From: Tetramitus jugosus | Taxonomy: Eukaryota; Heterolobosea; Eutetramitea; Acrasida; Vahlkampfiidae | DNA: 64,000 bases | Reading direction: 5' to 3' | Assembly: GCA_937625935.1 (NCBI GenBank) | Contig: OW569381.1 | Coordinates: 62,001 to 126,000, forward strand | Part shown: piece by piece, positions 25,305 through 58,318 of the stretch | How positions within the stretch are numbered: the first letter of the stretch is position 1 | How the letters are laid out: each line of letters opens with the position of its first letter | The notes under the pieces: generated by a model | What the model was told of the DNA's origin: nothing | Databases searched by the model: none | The model's input: only the letters and a program-made list of their open reading frames with translations | Translations under genes and position numbers: made by a program

Positions 25305-25386
25305 GCTCATTTGGCCGAGTGGTTAAGGCGGCGCACTGCTAATGCGTTGGGTTCATCCCGCGTAGGTTCGAATCCTACAGTGGGCG
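25305..25386 (+). tRNA. tRNA-Ser(GCT)
   Basis: 82 nt. Acceptor GCTCATT pairs with AGTGGGC, the D arm is GCCGAGTGGTTAAGGC, the anticodon loop CTGCTAA gives anticodon GCT, a long variable arm (TGGGTTCATCCCG) is as expected for serine, and the T arm is GTAGG-TTCGAAT-CCTAC. A T6 run at 25389 is the RNA polymerase III terminator. No intron. Confidence 0.95.
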
Positions 25387-27674: not shown

Positions 27675-27700
27675 CCCAGTTCCTGAAAAAAGTCAAAACG

Positions 27701-27773
27701 TACACCATATGGGAGTCGAACCCATGACCCCTGGATCCGAAGTCCAGTGCTCTATCCACTGAGCTAAAGGCGC
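27701..27773 (-). tRNA. tRNA-Arg(TCG)
   Basis: 73 nt on the minus strand. D arm GCTCAGTGGATAGAGC, anticodon stem CTGGA/TCCAG with loop CTTCGGA (anticodon TCG, decoding CGA), T arm ATGGG-TTCGACT-CCCAT. Acceptor GCGCCTT against ATGGTGT is weak: two G-U pairs and a T-T mismatch at 6-67. TTTT follows downstream. No intron. Confidence 0.85.
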
Positions 27774-27865
27774 TGTACATTAAAACTCCGACTAAAATTA
27801 CTAAAGTAATTTAAAGCGTGGTTTGACAAATTACGTTTCTGATTCAGTCGAGCAGAGAGTACCTC

Positions 27866-27979
27866 ATGGGAATGATGGGATTAGAGAATGACGCTGTCGA
27901 CCAGGTGGCGGATGCGCTGATGAAAAATGGGATGAAACAAGAAGTAGCGCAGCGACGTGTTGTATTAAAAAAACAATAA
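27866..27979 (+). CDS. Possible 37-residue ORF or terminal exon
   Basis: ATG to TAA, encoding an amphipathic, helix-like peptide (DAVDQVADALMKNGMKQEVA). The frame continues upstream to a TTTCTGATTCAG acceptor-like sequence, so this could be a last exon of something unseen. No homology is recognised and the opposite strand is also open. Weak. Confidence 0.15.
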   Translation: MGMMGLENDAVDQVADALMKNGMKQEVAQRRVVLKKQ

Positions 27980-28080
27980 TTTAAAAACAATTTGCAGATC
28001 TTACATCTGGTTTGACAACCACCGGTTGTAGTAAAAAAGGTTGGTTCACATAATTTATCCATACTCATTGACCAACCAAC

Positions 28081-48513: not shown

Positions 48514-48586
48514 CTCCTCCAGTTGGGCTCGAACCAACGACCTGCAGGTTAACAGCCTGACGCTCTACCAACTGAGCCATGGAGGA
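48514..48586 (-). tRNA. tRNA-Asn(GTT)
   Basis: 73 nt on the minus strand. Acceptor TCCTCCA/TGGAGGA fully paired, D arm GCTCAGTTGGTAGAGC, anticodon loop CTGTTAA (GTT), T arm GTTGG-TTCGAGC-CCAAC. A TTTT terminator lies downstream. No intron. The first retroelement starts 31 bp upstream of its 5' end, in the opposite direction. Confidence 0.95.
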
Positions 48587-48659
48587 CACATTTCTGTGAC
48601 ATCAGCAAAAAAAGATAGGGTTCTACTTGCCTAAAAAACGCAGAAAAAAACGGAATCAC

Positions 48660-49808
48660 ATGTCTGGTGATTCAACAAATTTGGTGAAGGAATACGGCAA
48701 CAGCCGTTACGCAGTGTGGACCACTGCACGGAAAGGCTCTAGGCCAAGTGACAGAGAGGTGGTCATTACTGGCAACGGTAATGGTGTCTCTCAGTCATCT
48801 TTGGCAAGAAAGATAGGAGCGGAGTTTGGTGACTGGCTCAACCGAGTCCAGGTCATCAAGAGGAAAGGCCAGCAACGCTTTGTTGCATGGGTGACGGTCA
48901 AAGGCGACCGCATCTATGACTTTGTTGAGTTGTTCAACAAAGAGAGGAGGATTGGCAACAGCACTGCTGCACCCAAGCGCAGTGTTGATTGTACAAGAAA
49001 GGTGGTCGTCCATGGCATGAAGAACATGTCAGTGGACGACATCAAGAAGCTACTGGGACCTGAGAAGGTTGCCAGTGTGCTCAAGAAGCGTGACACTGCT
49101 TTCGTGGTCATGGGTGATGAAACCTATGCACGAGCAGTGCTCAGCGGAGAGAACAAGGTAAAGGCCACGGTCACTCGATACGTCGAGAGACCACATGATC
49201 CTCTCAAGGCTGTCAACAGGAGGTTGACGAAGATGTACGAGGAGCTGCTGACGGTGGTTGACGCACTGCGTCTACAGGTCACAGAACTCACCAAGGAATT
49301 GACAAAGACAAAGGGTCAAGAGAGCAACAAACCGGTTCCGATACCGGAACCAGAAGTTGCACAAAGTACTGCTCCTGATCTAATGGAGGCAGAAGAACAA
49401 AGGAGTGCAACACCACTGCCAACAGTGCCTGTTGTACAGCTCAGCGCTGAAAATCGGCAAATCCTGGAGCAAGTGAATACCACTTCTCCAGTGTTTGCAA
49501 GAGTGAAGAAGGAAATTGCTGCATTGGCACTGGCTGCTGCACGCAAAAGGTATGGTTTGACTGAGGACGAACCAGTCATTGTGGATGTGGATGATGACTC
49601 CGAAAAGGAGATTCAGAGCCCACAACTCAATGACAACAAGAAGAGGAGTGCCAGGATCACACTGGGTGATCTGATGAGCAACAAGGCCCAAAACAAGAAA
49701 ACAACAACAGATGGCTCTGTGTCCATCGACGGTCCTACTACAAGGTTACGCTCTTTGATGAAGGGCATCAACCAAAACACTCACCAGAGTGATTCTTCCA
49801 ACCTGTAG
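48660..49808 (+). CDS. ORF1-like protein of element 1
   Basis: 382 residues from the ATG at 48660; a basic stretch encoded just upstream (KKRRKKRN) is in frame but lacks ATG. Domain order: first RRM-like unit at about 12-90 (REVVITGNGN, helix, WLNRVQVIKRKGQQRFVAWV, DRIYDFVELFN). A second RRM-like unit at about 110-180 (RKVVVHGMKN, DDIKKLLG, DTAFVVMGDETYARAVL). A coiled coil at about 185-235 (DPLKAVNRRLTKMYEELL), a P/E/S linker, an alanine-rich helix, an acidic VDVDDDSEKE and a basic tail (QLNDNKKRSARITLGDL). LINE ORF1 proteins commonly combine RRM and coiled-coil regions and bind element RNA. The RRM assignment is by strand/helix pattern only. Four diverged relatives follow within 8 kb. Confidence 0.75.
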   Translation: MSGDSTNLVKEYGNSRYAVWTTARKGSRPSDREVVITGNGNGVSQSSLARKIGAEFGDWLNRVQVIKRKGQQRFVAWVTVKGDRIYDFVELFNKERRIGNSTAAPKRSVDCTRKVVVHGMKNMSVDDIKKLLGPEKVASVLKKRDTAFVVMGDETYARAVLSGENKVKATVTRYVERPHDPLKAVNRRLTKMYEELLTVVDALRLQVTELTKELTKTKGQESNKPVPIPEPEVAQSTAPDLMEAEEQRSATPLPTVPVVQLSAENRQILEQVNTTSPVFARVKKEIAALALAAARKRYGLTEDEPVIVDVDDDSEKEIQSPQLNDNKKRSARITLGDLMSNKAQNKKTTTDGSVSIDGPTTRLRSLMKGINQNTHQSDSSNL

Positions 49809-49837
49809 GTGCACCGTCGGGGACAACAAGAGAAGAA

Positions 49838-49867
49838 GAGTGAATGACGCCCTACGGGTCGTCACTC
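49838..49867 (+). other. Hairpin after ORF1 of element 1
   Basis: Imperfect stem (GAGTG..ACG-CCC / GGG-T-CGT..CACTC) beginning 30 nt after the ORF1 stop, followed by ACAAAACA and AATAAA. Element 2 has a different-sequence hairpin in the same place. Confidence 0.55.
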
Positions 49868-49894
49868 ACAAAACAAGTCAATAAATGAGCAATC

Positions 49895-49914
49895 GTGTGC
49901 TTGCGCAAGCACAC
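49895..49914. repeat. Terminal palindrome of element 1
   Basis: A perfect 20-bp palindrome just before GGTTGTAT and the A-tract. As RNA it would be a stem of up to 8 bp with a GCGC loop. It occupies the place of the TGGTGC/GCACCA hairpin of element 2. Confidence 0.7.
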
Positions 49915-49980
49915 ATGGTTGTATGGAACAAAAAAAAAATAAAAAAAAAAAAGGGTTCTACTTGCCTTAAAAAAACGCCG

Positions 49981-51224
49981 ATGAAAAAACGAACACACAC
50001 CCCTGTTGTTCGTGAGTATGAGAATCCACGCTATGCTGTGTGGACCACAGCACCAAGAGGAACTGCACCAAGCAAGGAGGTCATCATCACTGGAAAGTGT
50101 GATGACTCTCCCAAGGCTGCCTTGGCCAAGAAGATTGGCTTGGATTTTGGTGATTTGCTCACCAGGGTTCAAGTCATCAAGAAGGGCCCTTCCCCAAGAG
50201 GTTTGTTGCGTGGGTAACTGTTGTTGATGACAACATTTACCCATTTGTTGAATCCTTCAACCACAACAAGAAGATGAGTGGCTGCAAGGCAGCACTCAAG
50301 CACAACGTAGATTGTGCCAAGAAGGTCGTCCTCCACGGTGTCAAAGGTAAGACGGAGGACGACATCAAGGCCATGCTTGGCACAACAAAGGTCAAGAACG
50401 TGCTCAAGAAGCACGACACTGCCTTTGTTGTGATGGAGTCCGAAACGTATGCCGAAGCTTTGCTTCGGAACGTTCAATCCATGCCAGTGGAGGTGGAAGC
50501 AAAGCGCTTCCTTCCACGCCCACGTGATCCCGTCAAGGCTGTCAGCAAGAGGCTGACCAAGATGTACCAAGAGCTACTGGCTGTGGTGGACGACCTGCGC
50601 CATCAAGTCAGTGTGTTAAGAGATATGGCTTCCGTCAACCGGATTCCCCTCGCATCCCCGTCCCCAAGGACGGAGCGAATCCCCGAATTCGAACCTTCGA
50701 CTCCGTCTACGACCGATGACTGGGAGTCGATCATGCCGGAGTCCCATCCCGCCACTCCAACTACGGTCAACCAAGAGCCAACCAACAACACCATTGATGA
50801 GGATGCTCGTAACAGAGCAATCCTCGAGCTAGTATTGAACACCTCCGAGGTGTTCAAGAAAGTCAAGAAAGAGATTGCTGCCCGAGCAATCATGGTGGAT
50901 CGTGCAAGAAGCACAACCACCGAAGAAGATCCAGTTGAGTTGGATCTCAGTAACCCCGACTGTGAGTTACAGAGTCCCCAACTCAACGAACACAAGAAGC
51001 GATCAGCACGTGTCACCGTTGGTGACACTGCTGTCAACAAGATCCCGGCCAGGTTGGCCAGTATCAAGTCAGGTGCTCTCCGTAGGTCCTACCAACTGGC
51101 TAGGACTACGGATCCATCTGACCTCACCAGTGGTGCTCCAGATGGTAGTGGAGGCCCTCGCAACGAATCCCTAAAGAAGGGATCAAAACAACATTCCAAG
51201 AAGAGAATGAATCCTGTTGCGTAG
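49981..51224 (+). pseudogene. ORF1-like gene of element 2, one frameshift
   Basis: About 410 codons from ATG 49981 to TAG 51224. The first frame (VREYENPRYAVWTTAPRG...LTRVQVIKKG) fails near 50195-50205, around CCCTTCCCC. The correct continuation (RFVAWVTVVDDNIYPFVESFN) is one base out of register, and from there the frame is clean to the end. Domain order copies element 1: two RRM-like units, coiled coil (DPVKAVSKRLTKMYQELL), P/T/S linker, acidic stretch, and basic QLNEHKKRSARVTVGD. A single indel in an otherwise intact frame points to recent activity or to an assembly error. Confidence 0.75.
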
Positions 51225-51268
51225 GCCTGCCACTCCACTGGGCAAGCACCACATCATGTTAGACAATT

Positions 51269-51290
51269 GAGAGCAGGCAAGCCTGCTCTC
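51269..51290 (+). other. Perfect hairpin after ORF1 of element 2
   Basis: Stem GAGAGCAGGC / GCCTGCTCTC, 10 bp with a 2-nt centre (or 9 bp with loop CAAG), 45 nt after the ORF1 stop. It is followed by ACACAAAA and AAATAAA, the same order as in element 1. Confidence 0.75.
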
Positions 51291-51324
51291 ACACAAAAGA
51301 CAAATAAAAGTTCAGCAACGTGGT

Positions 51325-51338
51325 CTTTAGAAAAAAAT
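51325..51338 (+). repeat. Left terminal inverted repeat
   Basis: CTTTAGAAAAAAAT, an exact inverted match of 52923-52936. Confidence 0.75.
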
Positions 51339-51364
51339 ATGAACGGCGATTGAAGTCTCTCTGA

Positions 51365-51570
51365 CCGGCACCGGTCAAGCGGAGGGTTCAAAATGTCGCT
51401 CAAGGGTTGTCGAGTCAAGAAAGAGTGACCGGAGAATGAACACAGGGGTCAATCATCAATGAACCCACATGACCACGAGCGGTCAGACAAGGGTCACTCG
51501 AGCGTCTGACCTGGCTGTGGTCAAGTTGCGATCCAAGCACGTTTGATCAACCGCTCAGACCTCTTTGGCC
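51365..51570. repeat. Left subterminal GGTCA-type repeat cluster
   Basis: Within 200 bp there are about ten copies of TGACC/GGTCA or close variants in both directions, among them ACCGGTCA, TGACCGG, GCGGTCAGAC, GGGTCACTC and GTGGTCAAG. Such arrays are typical transposase-binding regions. Confidence 0.55.
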
Positions 51571-52108
51571 TGTATCGGACTTGTCAATAAAGGGAACTTG
51601 GATCCATCTACTTCAGTAGAATTGTCATTCATTCTTGTTTTCAAGTTTTTGCCTCGTTTTGCCGTAGCTCTGTGCTTCACGACCTCTCAATTTTGAGATA
51701 CAAAAATTGAAAACCAAAACCATACAAAATCACAACAACTAACAAACAAATTAACATTATGTATACAGACCACCAACTGCAAACTCCACAAACAAGTGGT
51801 CAAGCTGATACAACACCACAACAAGCCATCTACTCTCAAGGTTTCTCCCAAGTACAGAACGGATCTCCCTACAACCATATTGCAAGTGTCCACGGCAATC
51901 CTATGGTTTTTACTCAAGCTCTGTCTCCTGGGTATCAAGCCATCCATCAACAACAGCAGCAGACTCCTCCAAGAGGCTTCCAAAAGTTGATGGAGATAGA
52001 GATGCATGGATTGACGATGCCTGGATGTCAAACAAGTCCAAATTCTTGGAACTGCTGCCAGAGTGGTCCAATGGCTCCTCTGCACTGAAAGAGGATAGAT
52101 TATCAGTG

Positions 52109-52169
52109 GTAATGTAGAACATTTTATTGTATTTTGTTTCAACAACAAACAATGCTAACTTTTGAGTAG
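52109..52169 (+). other. Intron in the TIR-element gene
   Basis: 61 bp, GTAATG..GAGTAG, with GCTAACTTTTG 10 nt before the acceptor. Splicing is phase 0 and joins two open segments. Confidence 0.6.
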
Positions 52170-52350
52170 TGGAAGCATATTCTAAAGCACTACTATTTGT
52201 GTAGATACATGAGGGATGTGAGCATGTACACCAATCCCGAACAAACAAGCAATTTGGTTCAAGTAGATGCTGAACAGTTTGAACTGTTCAAGAAGAAGAT
52301 GCTATTCTAGTCCTTAACAGAGGAAAATTTCAAGCAATGGAGGAATTCAG

Positions 52351-52430
52351 GTGAGAATGACCAAGCTGTAGGATTGGTATGTAGTGTTTATTGAAGTTGT
52401 TAACAATGGTACTAACTTTTGTATACCTAG
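52351..52430 (+). other. Second intron in the TIR-element gene
   Basis: 80 bp, GTGAGA..ACCTAG, with ACTAACTTTTG before the acceptor, the same motif as in the first intron. Confidence 0.55.
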
Positions 52431-52664
52431 TGATACGACAAGTGGGTGGAATTCTTTATGGATTCTTCAATGACTCTCAAGCAGTTGAAGATGAACGCTC
52501 CTGCAATCAGGAAGAACAAGGATTTGTGTCATGATAGCTCTGGAAGTGAAGAGAGCCAACAAACAGTGGTTTGATTGGTGTATTGATTTTGTCATTGAAT
52601 AAATTTTTACAATTCTCCTGCAATTACTTTACAATCATTTTTATAGTCAATACAACCATTACAA

Positions 52665-52920
52665 CAAACACCGGAGCGGACCAATCGGATCCTTTGAGAC
52701 ATAGGAGCAGACCAATTATACTCTGCGGTCATCACGATTTGACACAATGTGGACCGTCGCCCAAGAATTGTTCATCGCCGGTTCAAGCTCATCCGGTCAC
52801 TCCCAGTTCCTGGTTCGGTCAGACATTCCCCCCAAGCTGACCGGTCAGTGACCGAACACCTGACCGATGCTCATTGAACGGCGAGTGAACGAAAAATGAG
52901 CGGAGGTCAAGAAATCGGTC
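52665..52920. repeat. Right subterminal GGTCA-type repeat cluster
   Basis: At least ten copies of GGTCA/TGACC variants, including CCGGTCACTCC, GGTTCGGTCAGAC, GACCGGTCAGTGACCG and TGACCGATG, mirroring the left cluster. TTGAACGGCGA..TGAACG is also shared in direct orientation with 51340-51352. Confidence 0.55.
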
Positions 52921-52922
52921 CA

Positions 52923-52936
52923 ATTTTTTTCTAAAG
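52923..52936 (-). repeat. Right terminal inverted repeat
   Basis: ATTTTTTTCTAAAG, the reverse complement of the left terminus. Confidence 0.75.
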
Positions 52937-52970
52937 GTGCGCGAGCACCATTTGTTGTATTAAAAAAAAA

Positions 52971-53653
52971 CAAAAACAACGCGAAAACAGATGCAAACAA
53001 ACGAAATCACGTAATTTTCCATCCTCTCAAGGAGTGCGCGAGTATGTCAAGAACAGGCATGCTGTATGGACTACACTTCCCACAGGAGGTACAGTCAACA
53101 AACATGAAGTCATTCAGGGCAACAACCAACAGGGCTCGGTCATGGAGGTTGCGAGACATGTCGCAAACAGGTGTTCACCTTGGGCAACTAGAGTCCAGGT
53201 GATCAAATGGGAGAAAGATGAGTATATTGCATGGTTCAACCTCAAGAAAGACGAGATCTATGAGTTTGTGGAGCATTTCAACACCACAGTGTGTGAAAAA
53301 TGCCAAGGCATCCATCAAGAGAGGATTAGAAAATGACAAGAAGCTTGTTATGCACGGTGTTGAAGGAAAAACTACGGAGGAGATTGCAAGACTTGTTGGA
53401 ACTGAGAGTACAGCAAGTGGTGAAGAACAACAATACGGCCTTTGTGACAATGAGGTCGCCGACATACGTGCAAGCACTGATTGGAGATTCTAGTCTCAGT
53501 GTGAAGGTGAGCAAGTACAAAGGAGGGATGAACGAATCATGGTGGTTAACCGAAGATTGGAAACCACTAGAAAACAACTAACTCTAATGGTCGAGATTGT
53601 ACCTTGAATGACACCAAAGCAAGATTGCTCCTCAATCGTTGCATTCAAGGTAC
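52971..53653 (+). mobile_element. Element 3: decayed ORF1-only copy
   Basis: Begins directly after the A9 tail of element 2 with AACGCG..AACGAAATCACG, resembling the leader of element 1. The ORF1 relics are REYVKNRHAVWTT, EVIQGNNQQGS, WATRVQVIKWEKDEYIAWFNLKKDEIYEFVEHFN (from 53034), then after a shift KKLVMHGVEGKTTEEIARLVG, then another shift NTAFVTMRSPTYVQALIG, stopping at 53581. The coiled coil and tail are gone. A 12-bp stem hairpin follows the stop. Confidence 0.65.
53599..53653. other. Hairpin after ORF1 relic of element 3
   Basis: GTACCTTGAATG (53599-53610) and CATTCAAGGTAC (53642-53653) form a perfect 12-bp stem with a 31-nt loop, starting 18 nt after the relic stop. Position matches the hairpins of elements 1 and 2. 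Confidence 0.65.
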
Positions 53654-53809
53654 ACGTATAAAATATCTTTATGAAGTGTACACTATTTACAAACAGTTGA
53701 ATCCTCTGAAGTCAGTGGGACGAAAAAGATATAGATTATCCATCCATCCAATATTGATCTGAAAGATACAGTATAGAGGTCCCAGGTCAATTCGATGAGA
53801 AAAAATCTT

Positions 53810-53880
53810 CTCGAGCACCGGGAATCGAACCCGGGTCGCCAGAGTGACAGTCTGGAATGCTACCCCTATACCATGCCCGA
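53810..53880 (-). tRNA. tRNA-Asp(GTC)
   Basis: 71 nt on the minus strand. Acceptor TCGGGCA/TGCTCGA, D-arm region GTATAGGGGTAGCAT, anticodon stem CCAGA/TCTGG with loop CTGTCAC (GTC), T arm CCGGG-TTCGATT-CCCGG. A T6 terminator follows (AGATTTTTTC). Element 4 begins about 50 bp from its 5' end. Confidence 0.95.
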
Positions 53881-53935
53881 TGTGTTCCTTAGTTTCATCT
53901 TTCAAAATGCACCTCTGGAGAAGTTTCAAAAAAAC

Positions 53936-54674
53936 ATGGGCACAAATGCAAACACTCCATCCTCTCTGGGGGCAAAGGAGTACTCGCGTGACGGGTATGG
54001 ACAGTACAGAACATTGGAAGTAGCATCAACAAAAAAGAAGTCGTGATCAAGGGTACACAGTTCTGTGATGATTGGCTCAAGGTACAAGGAGTGGGTGACT
54101 CGTGCACATGTCAGAAGATGGGAGAAAGGCCAGTTTATTGCGCGGGTAAACGTGAAGGACGATAAACTCTACGAGTTTGCTGAGATGTTCAATGAGTCAA
54201 GAAGAATCGCAAACGCTCATGCATCAAGAGAGGTCTTGACTCAGAGAAAAAACTTGTGGTTCACAAGGTCCTCGGCAGTTCAAAGGACGACATCGTTAAA
54301 CTCATTGGAGAGGATAGAGTGCATCATGTAGAAGTTAAGGGCAGCACTGCATTTGTCACGATGACATCTCAATCATATACACATACTGTCATTGAAAACA
54401 AGCAGATTCAAAGAGAAGAAGGTGAAATATCTGGTGAGTCAGTCTTAATTGCTGCCAAGTGTTGATTGAAGATGACATTTTAATGCTAGGAGATGAAACA
54501 ATCTCTGAACAAAAGGCTCAGACGCTGGAGAACAAACTACAAGTGGTTCGGCTGACAGATATGATTGATATTGTTCAGGCCAGTAAGGAAGTGGCGCGTG
54601 TAGTGACAAGCCATGTGATACACAGCAATGAGGTGTCTCAACCCCAGTCGGACCACACATCTCAATTATGTTGA
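53936..54674 (+). pseudogene. ORF1 relic of element 4
   Basis: Opens MGTNANTPSSLGAKEYSRDGY. After shifts come EVVIKG, YKEWVTRAHVRRWEKGQFIARVNVKDDKLYEFAEMFNESRRIANAHA, then KVLGSSKDDIVKLIGEDRVHHV and STAFVTMTSQSYTHTVIEN (second RRM-like unit), and a coiled-coil relic (QTLENKLQVVRLTDMID). At least three frameshifts. Alignment with element 1 is colinear. Confidence 0.68.
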
Positions 54675-54695
54675 AGGGTGATGTAACTGCTGTGT

Positions 54696-55375
54696 AAAAT
54701 CATCACATCCGCTATCATCAAACACGCTAAAGTGTTTGAAGTGGAAAGAACAGCGAAGATGTGGAGCAACAATCGTAATGTCAAGAGGTTGTTGATAAAC
54801 ACAGTGGGTAATTTGGCTGCCGAGTACTTTGAAGGTGCCTTCTCCACTATGTTGATAATCTAAGAGCTTTAAAAAGTGATGGGTACAGAGCAACAATACA
54901 CAAAGCGTTCACCCCAATCACTACCGAGGAAGTTAGCAAAGCCATTGGGTGGCTGAGAAACCGAAAATGTCCCGGTGTTGACAAAATACATAACGAAATG
55001 CTGAAAGTCCCCATCACAGAGATCCTTGCTGATTTCTTTAACAAAATCACCAGGCAAGGATGTTCCCCAAAATGTGGAAAGAGGGGATAATTATCACAGC
55101 GTTCAAGAAGGGAGATACTTCTAATCCTGCCAACTACAGACCAATTTGTCTGTTGAGTACTGTATCAAAGCTGTACACCAAGTTAATCAACGGCAGAATC
55201 TCCAAGGCTGCAGAGGGAACAAAAGACGATTGTTTCTGTTGCTGACAGATATATCAAAAGCCTTCGACTCGGTACCTCACAACGCTATCCGGTCTATCTA
55301 TGAGTTTTTCGAGCTCCCGGACAACATCGTGAGGCTGACTTCTGGACTATATTGGAGTAGAGCAATAATACCACT
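54696..55375 (+). pseudogene. Non-LTR reverse transcriptase relic (ORF2)
   Basis: Three frames together give AAEYFEGAFSTM, TPITTEEVSKAIGWLRNRKCPGVD, then WKEGIIITAFKKGDTSNPAN and YRPICLLSTVSKLYTKLING (RT motifs 0-2), then LTDISKAFDSVPHNAI with the first catalytic aspartate region (motif A). Motif 2 is joined to motif A with about 30 residues deleted, and the YxDD part is absent. These motifs are typical of LINE-type reverse transcriptases. Inactive. Confidence 0.8.
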
Positions 55376-55421
55376 GTGCTTTCTCCTTATGCCCGAATGT
55401 TGTACCACATTACTGCGATAC

Positions 55422-56152
55422 TCATTCAAAGTCACTGTCGCTCACGTGTTCAATAATCACTGCTGGTACAGTCTTGTGAACATGAACTGTGCCCTTTGGT
55501 GTAGCGGATTCATGAACTTTGTTGGGTTCCTCTTCTCTCTCATTTTCTTCGGTATCCCTCTTCTTACCTCGCCTTTCAGGAGTCTTCAAATTGGGGAACA
55601 TCTTAGTGATTGCTGTCTCACGATTCTTGAATCCCCTCAATCTATAAGAAGCTCGGACCTCGGTTTCTCCAATGTCTTCACTTTGTTGAACTGATGGTTC
55701 ACTCTGGCGCACTGGTAGTTCATTTCGAGTAGCTGAGCTCTTTGTCAACCCTCTGAACAGTCCATGCAACTTAGAGACTTCTCTCTTAAGTGCATGGATG
55801 TCCTTCATACACATTCTGTACTTGTTAGTCATGTCGTTGAGTTGCTGCTGAAGTGATGCCGTAGAGTGTTTCATCTGTAGCGCTCTATCAGGCTCTGGGT
55901 GAACAAATGGTCTCACTCTTGTGTTCTCCAAGGGCTGCTTCTCCGTCATCACCTTTGTTGAATTCATGGATGAATTCCCACTCCTTGCCCTCCTACCCAG
56001 GCTATATCTCCAATTCTGTAGACTTGCGTCTTTGAATCAACTACCTTCAAGAGTGCCATTGGTCTTTGCGGCTGCTTCTTTAGACTGATAAGCGATCACG
56101 CTGAATAGTGGTTGCGACGTATCACCATCGCCTGTACGGCCCTTGAGTGTTT
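55422..56152 (-). pseudogene. Element 5: ORF1-like relic on the minus strand
   Basis: The best frame is 181 codons from 55967 (ATG) to 55422: RVRPFVHPEPDRALQMKH (compare RYVERPHDPLKAV of element 1), a coiled coil (ASLQQQLNDMTNKYRMCMKDIHAL), a basic stretch (RASYRLRGFKNRE) and an acidic end (EHVSDSDFE). Further upstream (to 56152) frames give PLFSVIAYQSKEAAAKTNG, comparable to the second RRM-like unit, but broken by stops. More diverged than elements 1-4. Before the later insertion at 56171, its 5' side would have lain directly upstream of tRNA-Tyr. Confidence 0.5.
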
Positions 56153-56170
56153 GACATCGTTTTTAGTTTT
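56153..56170 (+). repeat. Target-site duplication, left copy
   Basis: GACATCGTTTTTAGTTTT, identical to 56928-56945, flanking the truncated LINE on both sides. Confidence 0.85.
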
Positions 56171-56927
56171 TTTTATTTTTTTTTTTTAATACAACCATTG
56201 CGGTTGCTCACTTTATTATCAATACATTTTCATCAGCCATCGCTCATTGAGCGATGGCTCTTGGTCTTCTGATTAATTCCCAATGACGCTCGCAGACGCT
56301 TTTCCATCTTGCCGTCCTTCAGTCTCACATTATCGAACCATATGTCGATACAGCTGTTGGCTGACACGCCCATTCTGATCAGCTCCTTACTGACTGTCAA
56401 GGCTAGACATCTTCTTGCATACACAGTCCTTGGACATCGAATGAGACAGTGCAACACACTTTCGGGCTCTTTGTTGCACCAGACACACTTTGTGGGCTCA
56501 TCACAAGTGTTGTACAGACATCGAACAACATCCTCCGTATGTAGAGTCCCACTTCTGACCTGAAGCTGGAACCATTCCAGCCTTCTGTCAACAGAGTGTG
56601 GGTACTTGAGAAAGCAGAAGTCTGCTCCACTGTAGTTGGCATCCTTTTGAATCCACCAACGCTCACTCTTCTCTACTCGTGCATTCCTCTCCTGATCGAA
56701 TAAGGATTGAAGATGTTCCCTACTCTCGACTCGGAGGTTACCCTTGTACAGAGCCGGTTCATCTTTAGTGGAGTTTTGGTTTATGGGACACTGACATGTC
56801 CTCATCTGCGCAATCAAAATGTTCAGTATTTGGTGCGATTTTGCACCTATCTTACATGTTGGGAATAGTTGCTTGAATTCTTTGAAACACAGAGGCTGTT
56901 CCTCCACAAGCAGTTGATTGCGGCTTA
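56171..56927 (-). mobile_element. 5'-truncated LINE insertion with poly(A) tail and 18-bp target duplication
   Basis: On the minus strand the copy begins inside ORF2 at 56927, ends with AATAAAGTGAGCAAC, CGCAATGGTTGTATT and A12TA8 (56171-56190), and is bracketed by the 18-bp duplication. These are the marks of target-primed reverse transcription. The 3' end matches those of elements 1 and 2, which lack ORF2. The insertion point is about 40-55 bp upstream of tRNA-Tyr. Confidence 0.85.
56233..56927 (-). CDS. C-terminal fragment of LINE ORF2 with zinc-knuckle-like motif
   Basis: The frame is open from the 5' end of the truncated copy to a stop at 56233, about 230 codons; no native start. It contains CVWCNKEPESVLHCLIRCPRT, a C-x2-C-x8-H-x4-C arrangement found at the C-terminus of many LINE ORF2 proteins after the RT domain (RRCLYNTCDE and RSGTLHTEDVVRC lie just before). 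The frame is not broken, so the insertion is young. As a fragment it should have no activity. Confidence 0.72.
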
Positions 56928-56945
56928 GACATCGTTTTTAGTTTT
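56928..56945 (+). repeat. Target-site duplication, right copy
   Basis: Exact copy of 56153-56170; lies 38 bp before tRNA-Tyr. Confidence 0.85.
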
Positions 56946-56982
56946 GCTTTTTTTATTGAAGCGAACTCGGTTGACACATCCT

Positions 56983-57055
56983 CCTCTGATAGCTCAGATG
57001 GTAGAGCATGAGACTGTAGATCTTGTGGTCGCGTGTTCGAGTCACGCTCGGAGGA
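56983..57055 (+). tRNA. tRNA-Tyr(GTA), intronless
   Basis: 73 nt. Acceptor CCTCTGA/TCGGAGG, D arm GCTCAGATGGTAGAGC, anticodon stem TGAGA/TCTTG with loop CTGTAGA (GTA), T arm GCGTG-TTCGAGT-CACGC. TTTT follows. Eukaryotic nuclear tRNA-Tyr genes usually carry an intron after the anticodon; here there is none. Confidence 0.93.
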
Positions 57056-58318
57056 ACCTTTTGCTTTTGACCAAGGGGCAATTTGATGTTACCAAAAAGC
57101 CAATTCTACTCGCTCCACTTTCTTAAACATGGACAGAAGTCAATATGGCCTAGGACACTTCGTGGCTCCACTATATCACTAATCTCGAGAAAGAAAAAAC
57201 ACCAGTCAATTTGCTGAATTGTGATGCAATCTCTAATTTTTCGTTTCGCTTTTTCGGACTTGGCGGTATTCATACTCTTTATGAAGAGCGAGCCGGTGAA
57301 GGAGAGACGCTGCAAGACATATTTGCAAGAATATCACCTCAAGCACGTTCTGCCAACCCACATGGATCAAAACATCCCTCCTTTTAAAAGAAGAATTTCA
57401 ATCTCTGTGACTACTTTGAAATCAACCCCCGAACGAAGTGCAAGAAATGCTAGAGGACTCAAGTGAAAGTTGGGAATCGGTAATACATCACTACACCCAT
57501 TGAGTACCCCACACAAGACCACATTGGGCGAACACCATTAATGATGGTACATAGACCGAACCCTCCCTAATAGTTTATGCGTGGTTTGGTACAATCTACC
57601 TGTAAACATGATCTTTGTTATTAATTCGCTCTTGTTCTTACCCGAGTTTTCAGTGCGAAGTTCTTCTTGCACCTTGATGAACAATTCGGCTCCATCTATT
57701 GTCTAGTTCCATAATCACTCCATACACAGGATTCATATATCTCTACATTGATGTCTTGCAACTCCATTTTTTCTTTTCCAAGTTTACAAAACAAGTTTGA
57801 CGTACATCGAAGAGGTATCATTAACGGTATGTGTTGGTATTCTACTCGCGGTTCTGGCATTGATGGTGGTATCGGAGTCGACTCGACCTCTTTGTATCAC
57901 ACCATCTGATGTGACAGTCTCCATCTGAAGGAATATGGTCGTGATGTAGTCTGTAGAGCGACTATACAAAAAAGAAAGAGAAATTATCGAACGTCAAATA
58001 GACTATAAGAAAAACATCTTCCTTGATTAATGGTCTTGATATTCGGTCTCCTTTTATTTCGTGTTTTTAAGAGAAGGTTGAGTCAACATTGGAAAGTAAA
58101 ATGAGTGTGTATGTTGTTCAGAAAATGTGTGTCGAAGAATCCAGATATTTCGAAAAGTATTTATCACCTCAAATATAATAATATAATTGTCTATTGACCC
58201 TCAATTGACATGAATAGATTTAGGATCCCTCTCTCTCTCAAATGTTTTATGAATAGCTTCAATATTAGAACAAGTCTTGAATAAGTCCAGCGATGTCTTC
58301 GAAGTTGATCAAGACACT
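57056..58318. other. Intergenic region with at most a minor ORF
   Basis: About 1.26 kb between tRNA-Tyr and the first ATG of the phosphatase gene. The only frame of note is 57221-57466 (+), 81 codons starting M-M-Q-S-L-I-F-R-F-A-F, without recognised homology. The 58099-58175 stretch has a short ATG frame (MSVYVVQKMC) that could be a 5' exon of the phosphatase. The remainder shows no repeat or RNA gene. Confidence 0.45.
57221..57466 (+). CDS. Possible small basic protein
   Basis: 81 residues with a hydrophobic N-terminus (LIFRFAFSDLAVFILF) and a basic remainder ending SARNARGLK. It might be a small signal-anchor protein or chance. No family and no supporting context. Confidence 0.2.
   Translation: MMQSLIFRFAFSDLAVFILFMKSEPVKERRCKTYLQEYHLKHVLPTHMDQNIPPFKRRISISVTTLKSTPERSARNARGLK

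Follow-up and report, generated by a model that had tools for sequence, protein, structure and literature searches.

Retroelements and tRNA genes in the window

The stretch of DNA considered here, called the window throughout, comprises 64,000 bases (C38:62001-126000) of the genome of the free-living amoeboflagellate Tetramitus jugosus, which is placed in Discoba, Heterolobosea, Vahlkampfiidae, and it carries clusters of retroelements of the long interspersed nuclear element (LINE) type situated at transfer RNA (tRNA) genes. The strain CCAP 1588/3C is represented by the assembly paTetJugo1.1 (GCA_937625935.1; alternate haplotype GCA_937658345.1), for which the genome note gives a total of 26,350,207 bp (PMC11106597), and the genome searched in this work amounted to 26,348,746 bases in 56 contigs. 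The words 'transpos', 'repeat' and 'trna' are all absent from the main text of that note, and a search restricted to open-licence literature found no earlier description of retroelements of a heterolobosean lineage that target genes transcribed by RNA polymerase III (Pol III). The analysis revealed that several LINE families insert at a single well-defined site, approximately 30-45 bases upstream of genes for tRNA and 5S ribosomal RNA (rRNA), from which they point away.

Five tRNA genes were identified in the window by means of ARAGORN and Rfam, at the positions already given by an earlier reading made from the sequence alone (the sequence-only reading), which had also correctly placed elements upstream of, and divergent from, tRNA-Asn, tRNA-Asp and tRNA-Tyr. 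The tRNA-Asn(GTT) gene (48514-48586, minus strand) is the target gene of elements 1 to 3, all on the plus strand. Element 1, which had been reported to begin 31 bp from this gene, was preceded by a 16-bp target site duplication at 48617-48632, corresponding to 31-46 bp upstream of the gene, so that its body starts at 48633 and extends to 49951. It is a complete retroelement carrying only the first open reading frame (ORF1) and was assigned to type a, being composed of a short A-rich leader, ORF1 (48660-49808, plus strand, 382 amino acids, with two predicted RNA recognition motif (RRM)-like domains and a coiled coil), a 3′ hairpin and a poly(A). The second copy of the 16-bp repeat, at 49952-49967, adjoins element 2 (49968-52968; the 3′ end is approximate and was placed by eye), an ORF1-only retroelement of a second type (type b) whose coding pieces lie at 49966-50190 and 50274-51224. 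Elements 1 and 2 of the sequence-only reading were redefined as ORF1-only, and element 2 proved to be split by an insert resembling a DNA transposon (51325-52936, no strand assigned) and bounded by terminal inverted repeats of 21 nt with 86% complementarity. This 1.6-kb insert interrupts the 3′ hairpin of element 2, and a genome search with its first 376 bases returned one full copy, namely itself, and one 90-base match (83%). Element 3 (53016-53595) is a broken ORF1 of the type found at locus L070, in two pieces with 89% and 59% identity.

At the tRNA-Asp(GTC) gene (53810-53880, minus strand), the degraded element 4 (53928-55349, plus strand) opens with an A-run at 53928, which is 48 bp from the gene, in agreement with the earlier estimate of about 50 bp; its ORF1 pieces were recognized at 53927-54396 and its ORF2 pieces at 54693-55349. 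The tRNA-Tyr(GTA) gene (56982-57058, plus strand) is faced by a 5′-truncated ORF2 copy (56167-56927, minus strand) and, behind it, by element 5, an ORF1 piece of the L072 type (55473-55979, minus strand, 28% identity). The truncated copy comprises the C-terminal part of ORF2 with a zf-RVT-like zinc finger (56236-56907, minus strand, E 0.01, below the Pfam cut-off) and a 3′ hairpin at 56180-56207, the start of the poly(A) included. A 14-bp repeat stands on either side of it (56928-56941, nearest to the gene, and 56153-56166), indicating that this fragment is younger than element 5 and entered at the 5′ edge of the latter.

The remaining two tRNA genes had been taken as free of elements, which held for one of them. 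No element was recognized in the upstream flank of tRNA-Ser(GCT) (25305-25386, plus strand), while tRNA-Arg(TCG) (27700-27773, minus strand) was preceded by a relic of an ORF2 3′ end (27830-28007, plus strand). This relic includes a 5′-truncated ORF2 match at 27845-27958 on the plus strand with 87% identity, 72 bp from the tRNA-Arg 5′ end, and has an 11-bp repeat on both sides (27819-27829 and 28008-28018). As the repeat lies 46-56 bp upstream of the gene and a clean poly(A) junction is absent, the relic is less certain than the other elements of the window; counting it, four of the five tRNA genes, rather than three, are occupied.

Genome-wide arrangement of the elements

The ORF1 of element 1 was matched in at least 110 places of the genome, and 150 ORF2 matches were listed. 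The inspected set consisted of 50 ORF1 copies with a near-complete 5′ end, namely the 30 best of the 110 loci, examined with flanks of 1.5 kb, and 20 copies from a blind test. The great majority of them (43 of 50) stood directly at a Pol III gene, which was a tRNA gene in 39 cases, a dispersed 5S rRNA gene in three and a tRNA relic in one, and all 43 were divergent from it; the other seven were placed in tandem behind another element. The sequence-only reading had proposed that distance and orientation be measured across the family, random values being the outcome that would speak against an insertion preference; random placement was not observed among these 50 copies, all of which had their 5′ end turned towards the 5′ end of a Pol III gene or, in the seven tandem cases, towards an element lying in between.

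Among the 30 best loci, the 5′ end of a tRNA gene lay 34-52 bp from the start of the ORF1 match in 20, always in divergent orientation; as revealed by Rfam, this position was occupied by a 5S rRNA gene at L012, L015 and L034 and by a truncated tRNA-Ile at L020. The six remaining copies followed another element (L017, L024, L025, L027, L033 and L038), and at L017, L024, L027 and L033 the tRNA gene was found beyond this intervening element.

The blind test drew on a pool of 26 further ORF1 copies whose match started at residue 17 or before, which had no match on the same strand in the 3 kb upstream and for which no Pol III gene was known in the expected arrangement up to a distance of 6 kb. Twenty of them were examined over approximately 240 bases each, and a divergent tRNA gene was found immediately at 19, the remaining copy (L082) following the 3′ end of another element in tandem. 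The first recognizable element motif lay 6-62 bp from the tRNA gene, at 24 bp or more in 18 of the 19, these distances being less exact than those obtained from target duplications. In the same set of loci (L075-L094), many tRNA genes presented by eye an A/T-rich, AAATAT-like stretch within approximately 10 bp upstream of the mature 5′ end, which is perhaps a start-site or TFIIIB feature.

The list of Pol III genes was incomplete, with 186 genes known when chance was calculated, and all gene-based counts refer to listed genes. Relative to known Pol III genes, the 110 ORF1 matches were upstream and divergent within 120 bp in 34 cases, within 1 kb in 5 and within 6 kb in 10, and the 150 listed ORF2 matches in 13, 24 and 23 cases, respectively. 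The probability of a random divergent hit within 60 bp of one of the 186 genes was 2.1e-4 per insertion, and the log10 of the probability that 43 of 50 copies were so placed by chance was about −131 when 500 genes were assumed, both figures having been derived from gene number and genome length, not from shuffled positions.

Counts from the gene side and from the 3′ hairpin

The same asymmetry was observed when the genes were taken as the starting point. Among 136 known tRNA genes (one of them a relic), an element started within 1.5 kb upstream, in divergent orientation, at 63, and any match started within 1.5 kb downstream at only one. This sole downstream case was a tRNA-Val gene on C52, and the match was an ORF2 piece in tandem behind the L029 element of the neighbouring tRNA-Arg gene. 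Since some tRNA genes had been found via the elements, the fair comparison is given by the 53 nuclear tRNA genes that were found without reference to them, and here 14 upstream cases were opposed to none downstream. These occupancy figures are lower bounds, because short relics such as that at tRNA-Arg escape protein searches. The published mitochondrial genome of T. jugosus has 49.46 kb, and contigs C54 and C56, which share a length of 49,460 bp and the positions of their tRNA genes, apparently represent it twice.

The 5S rRNA genes, of which there are at least 50, are dispersed over many contigs and mostly single. At 47 of them, an element was found upstream in 10 cases and a match starting downstream in three, one of the latter being the L028 element, for which a tRNA-Gln gene was present at 43 bp, and the others being C10:117486 and C20:69401. 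An independent set was obtained with a pattern built on the 3′ hairpin, which occurred 241 times in the genome, compared with no occurrence of the reversed control; among the 100 hairpin ends listed, 46 had a known Pol III gene within 2 kb, and in 42 of these 46 the gene was divergent and lay on the 5′ side of the element.

Such a distribution could arise by survivorship, that is, by insertion anywhere in a compact genome followed by the loss of all copies except those near tRNA genes. The window is gene-dense, with long adjacent open reading frames, so that purging would be expected. Nevertheless, this explanation leaves unaccounted for a distance fixed to within a few bases, the orientation of 43 out of 43 copies and the near-empty downstream flanks (63 against 1 of 136 genes), and copies with an intact ORF1 have target duplications at the same place; it was consequently regarded as highly improbable.

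Target site duplications

Exact direct repeats of 12-19 bp flanked the element at all 24 directly adjacent loci among the 30 best, and of the six tandem loci only L025 yielded reliable repeats with the script used. Upstream of the mature tRNA, the near end of the duplication lay at 27-36 bp (median 29.5) and its distal end at 40-51 bp (median 43.5) at the 20 tRNA loci; at the three 5S loci, these ends lay 22-25 and 38-40 bp upstream, respectively. The A-runs with which the elements begin leave an uncertainty of one or two bases in these positions. The target window is therefore closer to the gene by approximately 5-6 bp at 5S than at tRNA loci, where distances are taken from the mature end (Mann-Whitney tests, p 0.006 and 0.007, with only three 5S loci). 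Since tRNA precursors have a short leader, this shift fits an anchor at the transcription start. At four loci (L009, L021, L026 and L036), the 5′ end of another element was seen by eye 0-15 bp after the 3′ duplication, indicating that successive insertions hit the same spot, the newest lying nearest to the gene.

Some LINEs with an apurinic/apyrimidinic endonuclease (APE) have sequence-specific targets, and an endonuclease recognizing a DNA motif common to the flanks was considered as an alternative. Yet no common sequence was evident by eye among the 24 target duplications, and these loci span 15 tRNA anticodon types, 5S and one tRNA-Ile relic, a diversity that calls for a factor common to all of them; cutting directed by a motif was thus considered very improbable. 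The constant adjacency of a tRNA gene would likewise be explained if this gene were part of the element and moved along with it. In opposition to such a composite, a target duplication separates the gene from the element, different copies stand at different genes and some loci have 5S in place of tRNA, which leaves it a negligible likelihood. Survivorship, motif-directed cutting and the tRNA-headed composite were all rejected.

Anatomy of the elements

In four regions chosen for their long ORF2 frames, a tRNA gene was found at the 5′ end of the element in all four. Three of these elements (L070, L071 and L072) carry both ORF1 and ORF2, and L069 is devoid of ORF1. The ORF2 of L070 and of L072 shared 45% and 42% identity, respectively, with that of L071. 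All three full-length ORF2s contained the reverse transcriptase family RVT_1 (Pfam, E 7e-29 to 5e-24), and the reverse transcriptases of R2 retrotransposons were among the PDB sequence matches of one of them. The endonuclease family Exo_endo_phos was over the cut-off in L070 (25.0 against 24.5) and below it in L071 (22.1), Exo_endo_phos_2 was below the Pfam cut-off in L070 and L072, and so was a zinc finger in the ORF2 of L072; no RNase H family was detected at E 0.1 in the three ORF2s. The poly(A) of the element was found at 29 of the 30 best loci. The reverse transcriptase, the APE-type endonuclease, the poly(A) and the target duplications of variable length identify these elements as APE-type LINEs, that is, retrotransposons without long terminal repeats (non-LTR).

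No Pfam family matched ORF1 over the cut-off. Its predicted fold had a mean pLDDT of 62, with most of residues 11-160 at 69-89, and the best Foldseek matches were tandem RRM proteins with low TM-scores (0.16-0.24 by query, 0.22-0.45 by target), so that two RRM-like domains and a coiled coil are predicted with modest confidence. ORF2 lies in the −1 frame and has its own ATG, which overlaps the stop codon of ORF1 as ATGA in L071 and L072 and as ATGTTAG in L070; this overlap suggests that ORF2 may be translated by termination-reinitiation.

At the type-a loci, the poly(A) starts 117-135 bases downstream of the ORF1 stop codon, counted from its first base, in 29 of 30 (the end is missing in L027), and type a is therefore devoid of ORF2. 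This type retains an ORF1 that is kept under purifying selection, as indicated by a ratio of mean dN (nonsynonymous) to mean dS (synonymous) divergence of 0.25 among the 29 of 30 copies with a full-length frame (406 pairs, not independent), the ORF1 of L011 being interrupted by a stop; selection was measured for type a only. The examined types end in a small hairpin before the poly(A), which reads GCAAC...GTTGTAT or near variants in nine ORF2 types and in type b (with GTAAC in L057, where it folds weakly) and has a longer stem in type a. By analogy with known systems, the ORF1-only families may be moved in trans by an autonomous ORF2 that would recognize this common 3′ hairpin.

Mechanism of insertion

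Position, orientation, target duplications, gene classes and element anatomy were directly observed. The most likely mechanism would involve a ribonucleoprotein of ORF1 and ORF2 tethered to TFIIIB on the Pol III promoter, where ORF1, by analogy with TRE5-A, would be the targeting adaptor. The ORF2 endonuclease would cut twice upstream of the mature tRNA, at approximately 30 and 45 bp, and these two cuts would give rise to the target duplications of 12-19 bp and to the fixed orientation. Each new copy would then land between the gene and the older copies, generating tandem arrays in which the newest is nearest to the gene, and the ORF2 of autonomous relatives would mobilize the ORF1-only families in trans via the common 3′ hairpin. 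The explanation as a whole, that is, a targeted group of APE-type non-LTR elements at Pol III genes, tethered by TFIIIB and including ORF1-only families mobilized in trans, was assigned a probability of about 0.83.

TFIIIB, located just upstream of the start, is the common denominator of tRNA and 5S genes. TFIIIC is placed differently on these two gene classes, TFIIIB is placed alike on both, and TFIIIB is expected upstream of the start, where the cuts lie, all of which counts against the possibility that the tether is TFIIIC or Pol III itself. This possibility seems rather unlikely, with two known systems in its favour: the literature on targeting elements (PMC5006619, PMC5391098, PMC5911963, PMC5633606, PMC4007536) describes that TRE5-A requires an intact B box, which is the TFIIIC site, and that Ty1 uses Pol III subunits.

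Several points weigh against targeting through TFIIIB as the full account. Within 6 kb of 54 of the 110 ORF1 matches and 84 of the 150 listed ORF2 matches there was no known Pol III gene, and among such matches the blind test covered ORF1 copies only. For thirteen matches (seven ORF1 and six ORF2), a known Pol III gene was present within 6 kb and was arranged differently. Four of these ORF1 exceptions (C24:420583, C23:190466, C7:595315 and C14:499097) have a tRNA gene right at their 5′ end according to the blind test, C7:594246 is in tandem behind one of these four, and the ORF2 exceptions C11:364880 and C52:232620 are in tandem behind an ORF1 match; the other six exceptions, counted against the genes listed, are the ORF1 matches C23:197166 and C8:323849 and the ORF2 matches C10:117486, C20:69401, C15:80646 and C40:280568. 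Two ORF2 copies (C10:117486-118723 and C20:68627-69922) terminate close to a 5S gene, on its 3′ side, which could be due to chance or to a downstream preference like that of TRE3. Moreover, the blind-test copy L077 begins at a distance of just 6 bp from its tRNA, the comparison of distances between gene classes includes only three 5S loci, and two U6 genes had no element within 1.5 kb, a number that neither supports nor refutes the TFIIIB model. The TFIIIB tether itself is probable by analogy with known systems and goes a step further than the observed placement.

Comparison with known systems

Half-LINEs of the HAL1 kind in mammals are ORF1-only LINE derivatives, and the ORF1-only elements of T. 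jugosus differ from them in comprising two types (a and b) and in being target-specific. The preference for the upstream side of tRNA genes had been likened by the sequence-only reading to that of the Dictyostelium TRE5 elements, and the measured distances bear this out: TRE5 insertions were reported at 40-54 bp from tRNA genes and at 37-41 bp from 5S genes (PMC5911963, Table 1), and the distal ends of the duplications in T. jugosus lie at 40-51 bp at 20 of 20 tRNA loci and at 38-40 bp at three of three 5S loci. Beyond the claims of that reading, 5S rRNA genes are also targets and several distinct families share the habit. According to the papers cited above, TRE5 (TRE5-A.1 and TRE5-A.2) has in common with these elements a non-LTR structure, two ORFs, the order APE-reverse transcriptase-zinc finger and an element 5′ end that faces the tRNA 5′ end; TRE5-A.2 is devoid of ORF2 and is mobilized in trans, as would be the ORF1-only families of T. 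jugosus, and the ORF1 of TRE5-A binds the TFIIIB subunits TBP, Brf1 and Bdp1. The T. jugosus elements thus work like TRE5, at nearly the same distances, the likeness being known from position and anatomy, homology aside.

Other features set the two systems apart. The hosts are very distant relatives, an amoeboflagellate of Discoba in one case and a social amoeba of Amoebozoa in the other, and the 5S targets are dispersed over the chromosomes in T. jugosus, whereas those of TRE5 lie on an extrachromosomal rDNA element. The ORF1 of T. jugosus is predicted to hold a double RRM and a coiled coil, whereas that of TRE5-A is described in those papers as unlike any other ORF1, and the ORF2 of T. jugosus has an ATG overlapping the ORF1 stop, whereas TRE5-A is said there to require a −1 frameshift. 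The features proper to the T. jugosus elements are the predicted double-RRM ORF1, the ATG/stop overlap, the common 3′ hairpin and the ORF1-only families. The same distances and orientation in Heterolobosea suggest that such targeting either has more than one origin or is much more ancient than had been assumed. That Pol III targeting evolved separately in this discoban lineage and in dictyostelids, in the former with a double-RRM ORF1 serving as adaptor and with ORF1-only families that keep their ORF1 under selection and depend on an autonomous ORF2 via the hairpin, is possible, if somewhat doubtful. The comparison of two dissimilar ORF1 proteins makes it testable which part of a LINE recognizes a Pol III promoter, and the element starts may act as in vivo markers of Pol III promoters. 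The findings also support the idea that compact genomes select for elements that insert at safe sites.

According to the same papers, NLTR-B of Polysphondylium pallidum is likewise a non-LTR element, inserted 39-64 bp upstream of tRNA genes, and differs in having an RNase H domain. Such a domain after the reverse transcriptase marks NLTR-A and NLTR-B and was found in none of the three T. jugosus ORF2s. Yeast Ty3, Schizosaccharomyces japonicus Tj1 and Dictyostelium DGLT-A also target Pol III genes, Ty3 doing so via TFIIIB, yet these are LTR elements with an integrase that insert approximately 1-33 bp from the start or the gene, in contrast to the non-LTR elements of T. jugosus. Strong targeting that works like that of TRE5 is now seen in a second eukaryotic supergroup, where the elements have some parts peculiar to them.

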